From Adhaeribacter pallidiroseus (lineage in GTDB: Bacteria > Bacteroidota > Bacteroidia > Cytophagales > Hymenobacteraceae), in assembly GCF_003340495.1 (NCBI RefSeq), contig NZ_QASA01000001.1, forward strand, positions 6,014,001 to 6,078,000: a stretch of 64,000 bases of DNA, read 5' to 3'. The notes beneath the pieces were generated by a model. That model was not told the DNA's origin. It searched no databases and worked only from the letters and a program-made list of their open reading frames with translations. Positions 17,193-53,759 of the stretch are shown in pieces. Made by a program: the position numbers and the translations under genes. The first letter of the stretch is position 1; each line of letters starts with the position of its first letter.

Positions 17193-18043
17193 TTAGCCGG
17201 GTAGTTTTTGGCCTTCTTTAAAGAAATTATTTAAAATAGCTACTACCTGGGCCATTTCTAAAGGCTCATCAAAAGCTTCGGAAGCCGGGTTAGCGTTTAC
17301 GATATTGGCAATATTGACAGTAGCTTGCACCGTAGCTTCTTCGCCGTCGTAAATTGGTTGCGTAAACTCCGGTAAATTGCCCCGGTCTTTTAAAGTAATC
17401 CAGGGTTTGTTGTTGGTTAAGTTCTGGACATCGCGCCGCATGCGGCGGAAATAGGCGGCGTGCCTTGCCTCGGCCGAGTGTATTTGTAATGCCGTTTGCA
17501 ACACCGCATCGTTGGCCATAATAGCGGGTTTGGGAGCCTGTCCTTTGTACGCCCGGACACCAGTATCTTCAAAAGACTGCCCCAGCGCTAATACGGTAGG
17601 ATAGTCGTTAAATGGATCCGTTATTTTACCGCCCGCGGTATAATCAAACCGCGCTTCATCAATGGTGATGGGAGTGCCCCTAAATCGGTTATGGCTTTTT
17701 GTAAAGTAGCTACGTGGCCTTTTTCGTTATCCAGAATAGTTTGCAGGCCCGTTTTAAAATCGGCCGGCAGGCTGGTGCCCCGCTCTAAGGCTAAGCGGTA
17801 GTAAGTAGAATCGGTTAACTCGGCGGTTAAGGCAAAATTCAGAATCGCAATTATATCGGCGTTGTTGCCGGTCTGGCCGTAAGCTTTATTAAATACCGCT
17901 CCAAAAGCTACCGGAACAGCGGCCGCAGCCAACTTTTTGCCGAAACCACTCATGTACTTAAATACCTGGCGGCGGCTATCAAAGCGTTCGTAAACTTCCG
18001 GATCTACTTTTTCTATTTCTGTAAATATATTAAAGATATTCAT
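17193..18043 (-). pseudogene. Ferritin-like domain protein, interrupted by a -1 frameshift
   Basis: Two frames join into one gene of about 283 residues. Frame 1 (18043 to about 17678) reads MNIFNIFTEIEKVDPEVYE, then the ferritin-like helices ALTAELTDSTYYRLALE and LDNEKGHVATLQKAITDLG. Shifting at the GGGG run (plus-strand cccc 17677-17680) continues as GTPITIDEARFDYTAGG, PTVLALGQSFEDTGVRAY and IHSAEARHAAYFRRMRR down to 17193. One missing base in the run accounts for everything. Without the shift, frame 1 ends in an unrelated tail (LMKRGLIIPRAVK) at 17621. It lies 13 bp after its paralogue. This is either a true pseudogene or a sequencing indel. Confidence 0.85.
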
Positions 18044-18056
18044 GTTGTTTTCTTAA

Positions 18057-47952: not shown

Positions 47953-50900
47953 TTATTTTAGTATGACTTTCACTATTACTTTTTCCTGACCACTCATCAG
48001 GTGTAAGAAGTAAAATCCTTTTTTCCATTGTTTGGCAGGTACTTGTAATAGGGCAGCCGTACTTTTTTGTTGGTAGGTTTGATAAACCTGACTGCCCAAA
48101 GCATCCGTAACTTTAATTTCTACGCTACTTACTTGCTTGGGGAACTTTACAAATACATCTCCGGAGGAAGGATTGGGATACACCTGCACTTCTTTTAAAA
48201 CCCTGGACTGTGAACTAGTAAAAACAAACTCTTCGGATTGAAAATAACACCCATCTTTGTAAATGAATACTTTATACGTACCCGGAGTTTTCGTTTTTAA
48301 GAAGCTTTTATTTTCATAAGGCAGCGCTTGCCGATTTAAATACCAGTAATAATATAAGCCATATTTTTCTGCGGTAAATAAAGTGTCCTGTTTTTGAAAT
48401 ATGCGGGCATCAAACGGCGTAGGGCCTACGTTTATTTCTACGGGTAAGCTCTCGCAGTTTTGAATAGTTTGGGTGACAAAATATTTCTTTTCCTCGGCCG
48501 GCACTGAAATCCAGGTACCTGAATTTATCGGTTGTTGAAGTTCTTTATCAGAATACCATTTTAAATTTTCGCCAGCCGCTTGTAAAATTAAGGTCATACC
48601 GGTATAAGGGTTACAATACGTGTATCTATTATTGGCATCTAACACTGGTTTCTCCGGTCTTTCTAAAATGGTAATGGTTACTTTATTAGCAACACTTTGT
48701 ACATTGTTTTTGGTTTGGGTTACGTAAACTACCTGCGTTACCCGAGGTTGGAAAGTGCCGCTGGCTAACTTAATAGTTAATTTCTGGTCTTTAAACCATT
48801 CAATTTTCTCTCCTATAGCTTTTAAAGTAATTTCTCGGCCACACCGATAAATAAGCGTGTCGTTAATCAGGGGAGCTTCGGGTTTGAAAAAGAAATCTCC
48901 AACCATTGAAAAAGCGGAACCTCGGTAAGCGGCATCTACTGTTTGTACCTTCCAGGTATAAGCTCCAACGGGTAAGTTTTTTAAGGTTAATTTAGAAAGA
49001 GCGCGACCAGGCGCAAGCTTTTGCCGGTTACCCGTGAACGGATCTAGAAAAGCTTTAGTAATAGCTTTTCCATTGCGATAAAGAACAACATCGTAAGTTA
49101 GGCCCGCGGATGGAGTTAGGTCGTCGGTTGCCGCTTTCCAACTCAGGTGCATGCCTTTTTCGTCTTGCACGGCTAAAAGATTAGTAGGCGGTTGAGGAGC
49201 CTGATTAGGTAAGCTGCTGGGGCCCACAATTATTTGATTTATTAATACTATGGCTCTTCCTTCGGTACTTGCATAAGGCCCTCTCAAGTAAATATCCAGG
49301 TCACCGTCATTGTCAAAATCAAACAATCGGCCTTGGTTCTGATCATAGTAAACGAAAGGCGGTATGTATTCGGAAAAGGAGTCATTACCCTCGTTCAGGT
49401 AAATACCAAAAGGGGTAGTGCCCAGATAAAAATCTTGATCTCCATCATGATCAACGTCTGCCCATTCGCAATCATTTATATTCACTGATGGGAAATCGCC
49501 CTTTACCAAGATAAAAACTGGTAAACCGTTGGCATCTACTCCCTGATTTTTATAAAGTTCGCCATTGCCAATATAGCTAGAGGTGTATTTACGCAGAATA
49601 AATACATCTGTCCAACCATCATTATTATAATCTACTAACCGGATGGGATGTCCATCACTTGAGGGTATCACAACTTTAGTTTGGATTAGTTTGCTGCCAT
49701 TATTATTTATAAAGTAATAACCTGAGCCGCCTTCATAAGTGTTAGCGTATTGCAGCAGGTCTTCATCTCCATCTCGGTCGTAATCATTTGATACAAACCC
49801 ATAACTACATCCTTCACAAGAATAAGGACCTTCTTTTTTAAAATAAAATTGCCATTGCCGTTGTTTTGGAAAACTCTTTTGGGCCAAGGAAAAGCAGCAC
49901 CTGCTTCAAAGGTAAAAGCATCTAAATCATTATCAGAGTCTATATCCCACCATCCCAGAATGCTTTGTGGTTTGTTCGTAAATACACTTGGTTCCGTTTG
50001 AAATTGATTATTTCCTTTATTACTATTTAATTCAGAAATATTTTGATAGTTACTACCAGACCCAAACCGAAATAAATCGAGCTGTTGATCGCCATTAAAA
50101 TCGAAAAATTGTAATTCTTGCGTGTAAGTTATATTATTTGAATTTAGAGAATGACTGATCCAACCTGTTTTAGTATTTTCTACAATCTTTATATTACCCG
50201 TTTTCCTTGATTCCATAGTAGGATTACCAAAAACAGACAGATCCAAGCGTCCATCATTATTATAATCAGCTACTTCTACTTTCGTTTCAACCATGCTGGG
50301 CAGACCAGGTTTTTGTTTTAACGCAAATAGACCGGTATTCCAGGTTACCTGATTAGAACCGGCAGAAGATTGATCTTTTATTAAGGCAGATACCCGGTAG
50401 GTATATCTTTTATTATAACTTAGTTTAGCATCGGTATAAGTAATGCTATTGGGAGGCAACTGTGCAATAATCGAAAAGTCCGTATCAGCAGTCCGGCGTT
50501 CCACTATGATTTTGGTTTCGCCGGTAATTACTTCTTGCCAGGTAAGGCGTACCTTATTTAGTAGAATTCGTTCCACCACCAGCTTTTGGGGGCCATTCAA
50601 AATTTGAAATCGCTGCGGCTTGGAAAAAGCAGATGACTGAAAAGAAGCGTTAATTGTTTGCACTTGTACGCTATATTCCCCCGCCGGAAGATTGTTAATG
50701 CTATAACTAGTTTGGTTTCCAGCATTGCCAGGCCCCAACCGGCGCCGGAAAGTGCCGGTTTCATTTGTTTCGGAGTGCATTATAATTTTACCAGCCGCAT
50801 TTTTTATTATTAAGTTGTAACTAATGGCTGGAGCTGGATAATTACTAGGAACGGGAGACCAGGAAATTTTAGTTTGATTGCCAGGTTTAACGCTAATGTT

Positions 50901-53759
50901 GGTAGGCACCGGAATACTTGGTAAGGGCTTACTTTTGGTAGAGCGGAGTTTATTCTCGTAAAAATTATAAAAACCTTCGTGGTATAGATCTAAATCGCCG
51001 TCGTTCTCTAAATCCGTAATTAAAAGCCGGTCTTCCCAATAGTATGGGTATGGCAATACGGTTGGAAAATAGTTGCCATCTCCCTGGGACTGCAATATTG
51101 TGAGACGATCGCGGCTGGATAGAAGTAAATCTGGTTGCCCGTTTAAATCAATATCCGCCGTTTGAACATCTAAGACCCCAGAGAGTTGCGCGTTTGTTAT
51201 TGTAATTTCGCGCTCACTGTTAAATTGTAAATTGCCCTTGCCTTCGTATACCAGCAGATAATCCTCCCCGCCGGAATTGCTTCGAATAATATCTAAATTG
51301 CCATCCTGATTATAGTCTACGAGCCAAAAGCCCCCTAAACTGGGTATTTCAGTCTCCTGCGCAGCAAAAGTATTTCCTTTTAAATTATAAAAGATTTTAG
51401 CTTTTTCATTCGTTACGTGGCTGCCGCCAAACAGAATATCGGCAAAACCATCATTATTCAAATCGCCTACTGCAAAATCACCTATTAATTGGCTGTACTC
51501 CGGAATAAAGTGATAAGAAGCCGCCGCAAAAGAAAAACTACTGCCTTGTAGCAAAAGTTGGTATCCATTACCTACGTAATCGCCATTGTAATGAGAAAAT
51601 AAAAGATCCGGGCGACCATCGTGGTTAAAATCCTCCACGGCTAACTGAAGCACTAAGTTATAACGGGGCGAAGTATATGCTTTCTGGAAGAGGCCATTCT
51701 TATTTTCAAAAACGTAAACAAAATGTTCGACCGTTGCACAAAAATCCTGATCGCCATCATTGTCTATATCCCGAAAAATAAAGTTTCGAGCTTCGATGCC
51801 TCCTTCCATCGCCGTTGCTAATTCGGAAGCGGTAAAAGTACCGTTGCCATTATTTTTAATTAAAGTAGTGGGCGGGCCGATATAACCTTTTCTGGCGAGC
51901 ATGCCAAAGTCGTAATCGCCATCATTGTCCACATCCGCTGCTTGACCAATTCCGGGAACAGCACGGGGACGCGGAGCGGGAAAGGTTTTTTTGACAAACT
52001 GTTTGGTATTGACTTGCACTTGGTTACTGGGAGCAGATAATACGCCTCCTTGTTCGACTTTAACGACATAGTCATAAGTGCGATTGGTAAAGATGGATGA
52101 ATCTTCGAAAAAAATAATAGTAGCAGGTAAGGTGGCTATTTGCTGAAGTGGCATGTTAGCCGATCGCCGGAAAATAATTACTTTTTGACTGGAATCGCCT
52201 TGATAAGCCCAGCGCAATTGTACCCGGGTTAATGCCGGTTGTTTGAACACCAGGTTAGTTGGGCCGGGCGCAACTGTAAAAGATTGGTATGTTGAAAAAG
52301 CAGAATTGCGCCCAGCAGCATCTACGGCTTGTAGGCGCCATTGGTAATTGCCAGCCGGTAAATGCTTGAGCTCTAGTTTATTTAAGATTTGTTTATGGGG
52401 GTTTTGCGGCCATAATGAACGGCCATCAGGTAAACTCAGGGAAGATTTATATAACTTATTGTTTAATTTTAATTCTAAGTTGTAAGAAATAGTACCTGGC
52501 GCCTTAATAGGATCCCAGGAAAGTAAAACGTTTTGTTTTTGATCTGATTGAAGCTTAGTGGGGACTGGTAGCTTAAAACCAGGTTTTACCGCTGAATTCT
52601 GATAACTTTCAAATTGGGGTTCTTGGTTATAGGTACTGCTGGAAATATAAAATAAATCCAAAGCTTGATCCTGGTTCAAATCCACCAGATCTAAATGACG
52701 GGCCGTTGCTGGTATATTTAGATCTTTCTGTTCAAATTGGATGCTGGTTTTATTAGATTGATTCAGGTAAATAACTGTTTTTGGTTGGGAGGCTACTTCT
52801 CCGGTACAAATCAAATCTGGTAAACCATCTTGGTTGATATCACCAATATCTACTTTTGGAAACAGGAAATCAGTGATTTGGTACGCATTTTCAAAATTCG
52901 GCTGGCCGGTTTGAATAAAAAGATTACGCAGAATAATGCATCGTCCATAATCCGTTATTAAAAACAAATCTAAGTCACGATCTCCATCCAAATCCGACCA
53001 AAGCATTTTTCCATAATCAGCAAATTTGGATAGTAACTCCTGATTTATTACTTCAAACAAACCATCTCCTCTATTAATATGTAAAAAAATTGGATTAGAA
53101 TTAGTATGGCCTTTGGCACCAGCAAAATCAGGTAGCCCATCATTATTAACATCGGCAAAAGCAAAAGATTGTAGGGAGGCAGACAAGGGATGGGGTGCTT
53201 GTGTAAAGGTATTTTGTTGATTTAAGTAAACAACCGGTGCAAAAGAAGTAGGATCAGTAGTAATAATGTCTAGATCAGCATCACTGTCTATATCTAGCCA
53301 ATGTAGTATGGGTTTGCTGCTGTTTGTACTTATTTCAGGTAAATCTTGCAGCGTAAAAGAAAGGCGATTGCTATTACGAGCTACCCGAAGCCGATTAAAA
53401 TCCTGAATTAAAAAATCTATATCGCCATCTTGATCATAATCACCAAATATATAGCTAAGGGGCGTTAAATCTACCGGAGCACCAAAAGGGTTCATCACTT
53501 CAATAAACTTACCGTTTCTATTTTCATAAAGCCGGACACTTTCTTTTTTGTTTTCCCAATTATTCTGATTAAATACCAGCGCATCCAAATCTTTATCGCC
53601 ATCTGCATCTAGCCATTCAAATTGCGCAAAAGAATCGGGTAGAGGTGTAAACTCCAGATTTTTACGTTGCAAGTTTTGGGAATAAGTTAAATAGCTAAGC
53701 AGGTAGAAAAGGTTGAAAAACAGGAAAAATTTAAAAAAGTAAAGTAGAGGCTGTTTCAT
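47953..53759 (-). CDS. Giant FG-GAP/fibronectin type III T9SS surface protein, split by a -1 frameshift
   Basis: Frame 1 runs 53759-49707 (1350 codons) and frame 2 reaches 47953. They join at A AAA AAG (minus strand 49839-49833) into one 1935-residue product: FILKK then EGPYSCEGCSYGF. A signal anchor (LLYFFKFFLFFNLFYLLSYL) is followed by three modules, each of VCBS/FG-GAP blades (Asp-rich loops such as DYDQDGDIDFLIQD, DIDNDGDQDFCA, DYDRDGDEDLLQY) plus fibronectin III domains (NLPAGEYSVQVQT, HLPAGNYQWRLQAVDAAGR, NLPVGAYTWKVQTVDAAYR). Ig-like repeats with Cys precede a type A sorting domain (VYPNPSSGDVFVKFPK). Frame 2 lacks its own signal, so alone it could not be exported. Calcium-binding adhesin or enzyme carrier is inference. 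Confidence 0.85.
49828..49839 (-). other. Slippery heptamer A AAA AAG at the frame junction
   Basis: Minus-strand reading is TTA AAA AAG AAG, giving the canonical -1 slip motif in the correct phase. The -1 codon GAA begins at 49833 and lies in the downstream frame. A weak 5-bp hairpin (TCCTT/AAGGA) begins 4 nt later. Confidence 0.7.

Follow-up and report, generated by a model that had tools for sequence, protein, structure and literature searches.

Programmed -1 ribosomal frameshifting in dnaX of Escherichia coli takes place at the heptamer A AAA AAG (PMC3711429; PMC4066793). For frame transitions detected with GeneTack, the authors regard non-orphan singletons as likely to reflect an indel mutation or a sequencing error (PMC3711429), and homopolymer-length errors are known for long-read-only bacterial assemblies (PMC8812927). 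These systems bear on a gene at 47953-53759 on the minus strand of a 64,000-nucleotide stretch (the window) of Adhaeribacter pallidiroseus (NCBI RefSeq assembly GCF_003340495.1, contig NZ_QASA01000001.1, positions 6,014,001 to 6,078,000), which encodes FG-GAP propellers and a sorting domain of the type IX secretion system (T9SS) in two frames with A AAA AAG near their junction. In our analysis the gene reads as broken, with the A-run at 49834-49839 one base short, most likely through a homopolymer-length error of the assembly.

The locus has the domain content and the C-terminal sorting domain of the T9SS-exported FG-GAP propeller proteins of Bacteroidota (Pfam FG-GAP_3 with Por_Secre_tail), but unlike the usual members it has three propeller modules per chain and no orthologue was found in the genus. 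The heptamer at 49839-49833 is the same as that of E. coli dnaX and lies in the same phase (PMC3711429; PMC4066793); unlike dnaX, the locus has no upstream Shine-Dalgarno-like (SD-like) element, no convincing hairpin and no known conservation, and whereas frameshifting shortens the dnaX product, here it would lengthen it. As with the GeneTack singletons there is a frame break without homologous breaks elsewhere, with the difference that this gene has only distant homologues, and a third of orphan singletons are expected to be gene overlaps (PMC3711429). What is proposed here also resembles assemblies in which one-base homopolymer indels split genes, many per genome (PMC8812927), with the difference that the error in the A-run is inferred.

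Architecture of the gene and its product

The upstream frame runs on the minus strand from an ATG at 53759 to a TAA at 49707 (1350 amino acids) and contains FG-GAP propellers 1 and 2, fn3-like domains and blades 1-3 of propeller 3, with Pfam matching nine FG-GAP_3 stretches and fn3. Its N-terminus is hydrophobic as judged by eye, and its final 41 residues are an out-of-frame tail. The downstream frame (49905-47953, minus strand), open from stop to stop with a TGA upstream at 49908, shares a 199-base overlap with the first and contains blades 4-7 of propeller 3, a stretch that resembles the fn3 regions seen in the other modules, Ig_7 and a T9SS type A sorting domain, Pfam finding three FG-GAP_3 stretches, Ig_7 and Por_Secre_tail. 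The sorting domain (47962-48183, minus strand) was above cut-off in two families (Por_Secre_tail, PF18962, E 2.6e-12; TIGR04183, E 4.6e-12). In its anatomy, T9SS sorting domain, coordinates and phase of the slip, the locus is as the original prediction described it.

One module occurs three times in the protein, and the copies (A, B and C) can be aligned with one another across most of their length, C spanning the junction. By eye, the joined protein shows seven calcium loops per module, matching D-x-[DN]-x-[DN] or a close variant, and the frame break lies after loop 3 and before loop 4 of module C, the third propeller. Apart from the junction neither frame contains a stop. As both flanks are clearly coding and are parts of one repeat module, the frame break is beyond chance, and the two frames encode one predicted T9SS-exported triple FG-GAP propeller protein whose read-through product would be 1309 + 626 = 1935 amino acids.

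No orthologue was found among the matches listed from 59 relatives (own genome included), 45 of which had a match; beyond the own genome the top-scoring place showed 31% identity over part of the protein. Likewise there was none in the eight genus genomes, the own genome and seven sister species, and none among the matches listed from 204 family genomes, own included. A wider scan of genome contigs with the joined protein, from which the own and very near genomes were possibly left out, gave 13 pattern matches and no confirmed one. Four distant homologues, two from the genus (L231 and L232), one from the family (L233) and one from the order (L234), each with a single frame (1418-2145 amino acids), can be aligned over 483-569 columns spanning the junction, with 24-27% identity. 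In the alignment of homologues, proposed earlier as a check on whether the heptamer and frame break are conserved, all four distant homologues examined are uninterrupted across the junction, and no orthologue was found that could carry the heptamer. These homologues show an unbroken frame to be the normal state of the module, though not of this particular gene.

The junction and its heptamer

The heptamer, a run of six A followed by G at 49833-49839 on the minus strand, is read TTA AAA AAG AAG in the upstream frame and its phase fits a -1 slip, which moves GAA at 49833 into the downstream frame. The position of the frame change was scored with a blade profile of 45 units, drawn from modules A and B plus the four homologues, and 19 of the 64 possible junctions were within 3 bits of the best, so that homology confines the change to a zone of about 55 bases on the minus strand from 49841 to 49787. 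The sole homopolymer in the 199-base overlap (counting runs of at least five for A or T and at least four for G or C) is the A6 run at 49834-49839, which lies inside this zone, and the junction is thus most likely there. The original prediction held that the two frames meet exactly at the heptamer; the heptamer is indeed in phase within the break zone, while the word exactly goes further than the spread of near-equal junctions allows.

Under the explanation we favour there would be one gene, with one base missing from the A-run at 49834-49839 in the genome sequence, and the missing base would throw the sorting-domain part into a second frame with no recoding needed. Were one base lost from an A-run, the presence of the heptamer at the break would be unremarkable, since among the 211 A7 runs in 452 genes of this genome one-base loss yields an in-phase A AAA AAG from 35 and A AAA AAN from 87.

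Frame breaks elsewhere in the genome

A one-base shortfall in the A-run had been put forward as the rival to frameshifting, and it gains from same-direction breaks in unrelated genes of the assembly, which comprises three contigs. Pfam supports one gene in two frames for FtsH, Ferritin_2, CCP_MauG and FG-GAP/ASPIC, and less surely for a TonB receptor and for a Malectin protein, which are probably split alike. The ftsH gene (L088 10153-12329, plus strand, outside the window) is the only one in this genome (G000), Peptidase_M41 having a single match in each of the eight genus genomes. Its open frame is 577 amino acids here against 705-727 in six of the seven sister species; in the seventh the frame (632) reaches a contig end. 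Each of the six intact sister FtsH proteins matches the locus in two parts that lie in different frames, next to a G8 run. A Ferritin_2 gene within the window (17193-18052, minus strand) is also in two frames, with the same -1 direction and near a G4 run, the domain being split at profile positions 67/71. Here its open frame is 177 amino acids, compared with 276-310 without a stop for the best homologues in six of the seven sister species; the seventh homologue (G003, 281 amino acids) has a TAA inside the match. A tblastn search with sister ferritins that took the longest frame per locus gave one match, elsewhere in the window at 12744-11749, and was not used.

Broken genes were counted by a homology test in which open frames of at least 200 amino acids from four other genus genomes were compared with each genome's sources, in rotation and by one procedure; intact places are matches binned by position rather than hand-checked genes, and G002 was sampled from one contig. 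The numbers broken (and intact) were 6 (105) in G000, 0 (61) in G002, 1 (52) in G006, 0 (82) in G004 and 0 (65) in G003, that is 6/111 in this genome vs 1/261 in the four sister species (Fisher p = 0.0034). All six breaks in G000 were -1, each with 4-6 equal bases in a row no more than about 16 bases away, and the one in a sister species was +1; ftsH is absent from the six. Other breaks in the genome adjoin G4, G5, C5 and T6 runs. An ab initio frame-break scan of 464 kb of G000 gave 25 candidates, of which 22 were -1, with the scan taking in eight stretches near short sorting-domain frames as well as some real gene overlaps. As ab initio scans over-call, it is the homology test that was relied on. 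One-base shortfalls at short homopolymers thus seem to be scattered over the assembly, the break in the propeller gene most likely being one of them, and from this pattern we infer that the shortfall in its A-run is an assembly error rather than a real deletion.

A number of observations weigh against this reading. Eight of the 41 G000 sources in the homology test were picked near short Por_Secre_tail frames, and with unselected stretches only (32) the comparison becomes 3/88 vs 1/261 (p = 0.051). The nearness of short runs to the six breaks comes without a chance baseline. In unselected sequence the ab initio scan separates the genomes weakly, with 5 candidates (all -1) in 640 kb of G000 vs 6 in 1.6 Mb of the sister species, and since five of those six sister candidates are also -1, direction is not diagnostic in that scan. 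The completeness of G000 is given as 99.97%, and its homopolymer run lengths show no depletion, which is uninformative as a test of under-calling. A second ferritin-like match in G000 is open over 280 amino acids with a TAA inside, so loss of ferritin may be tolerable. Finally, this single site would look no different had the base truly been deleted. Split genes in this assembly should be checked against reads before recoding, phase variation or gene loss is claimed from them.

Alternative explanations

A real one-base deletion ranks next after an assembly shortfall. Replication slippage in the A-run would have left either a recent pseudogene or an on/off switch governed by run length, an explanation we consider unlikely though worth keeping in view. 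A-runs are prone to DNA polymerase slippage, frame transitions include pseudogenes and phase variation, the latter often affecting genes for surface or secretory functions (PMC3711429), and the lack of stops in both frames outside the junction would suit a recent event. The gene may also be dispensable, given that no orthologue was found in the seven sister species or, among the matches listed, in the 204 family genomes with the own genome included. Against a real deletion, the single ftsH and a ferritin gene are broken in the same direction. A run of six is moreover short for a phase-variable switch. The GeneTack study used a minimum run of 7 (PMC3711429).

Programmed -1 ribosomal frameshifting at the heptamer, giving a short product that lacks the sorting domain and a long one that has it, is improbable and has little support beyond the heptamer. 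The heptamer at the junction is in the slippery phase and, given stimulators, A AAA AAG is listed with the motifs that shift most efficiently in E. coli (PMC4066793); the only tRNA-Lys found, in a non-exhaustive pattern search, has the anticodon TTT, which would favour slipping. Yet the heptamer is ordinary across the genes of this genome. The upstream frame alone has 11 in-phase heptamers of the form X XXY YYZ, the A AAA AAG at 49839-49833 among them, and 452 genes (199,827 codons, the target gene included) contain 40 in-phase copies of A AAA AAG. A first set of 250 genes had 24 vs 16 expected from codon use, so that the motif is not avoided. The dnaX gene of this genome has no in-phase A AAA AAG.

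Nor do the surroundings of the heptamer offer a strong stimulator. The downstream hairpin had been called weak from the outset and the fold is indeed mildly stable at best, with one length of four mildly low: 75 bases gave z -2.10, equalled by 7 of 200 shuffles, against -1.58, -1.07 and -0.42 for 55, 95 and 120 bases. An SD-like stimulator is an optional element, and none of the five motif forms given in PMC4066793 lies 6-17 bases upstream. No orthologue sharing the site turned up in the genus and contig searches or among the matches listed from the relatives and the family, and the four distant homologues have a single frame across the junction.

The proposed products fare no better. Without a shift, translation would run into the tail after blade 3 of 7, which is no sensible domain boundary; with blades 4-7 of propeller 3 beyond the break, the short form would stop mid-domain, and three sevenths of a propeller is an unlikely functional end. 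The more elaborate version, in which the A6 run is real and frameshifting yields a released form truncated in mid-propeller together with an anchored full-length T9SS form, would amount to controlled surface anchoring and is very unlikely; if frameshifting were true, the locus would provide a case of translational control of T9SS anchoring. The exported short form and anchored long form of the original prediction are thus not supported, in view of the mid-propeller end, the want of a strong stimulator, a heptamer that is not rare, the -1 breaks found in several unrelated genes close to short runs of G, C, T and A, and the broken single ftsH.

Transcriptional slippage on the A-run, restoring the frame in some mRNA, is a very remote prospect: A-runs can be slippery for RNA polymerase, but selection against slippage is visible from nine bases in a large share of genomes, with the length varying (PMC1088944), the run here is 6, and other breaks in the genome lie near G4, G5, C5 and T6 runs.

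Other split and overlapping frames

Two candidate pairs from the ab initio scans were rejected as broken genes. A moaC-like/mobA-like pair (L093 12694-14407, plus strand, +1) has a 38-base overlap, and a pair of frames in the sister species G004 (L182 11908-13624, plus strand) overlaps in the same way, so that this is probably a real gene overlap. Pfam resolves a MoxR/DUF58 pair in L099 into two genes.

The following regions all lie outside the window. An FG-GAP/ASPIC-UnbV region extends over three frames (L087 3803-7172, minus strand) with a G6 run at one change, and the second frame change there could be a gene boundary. A di-haem cytochrome c peroxidase (MauG) domain lies over two frames (L086 17722-18836, minus strand). 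At L089 3670-8268 (plus strand) six overlapping frames are chained in a region rich in G-runs, four of the five changes being -1. The T9SS sorting domain, which has 102 such matches genome-wide, also occurs in G000 on short frames of 128-219 amino acids (L044, L045, L047 and L055), and these may be small genes or the tails of broken ones.

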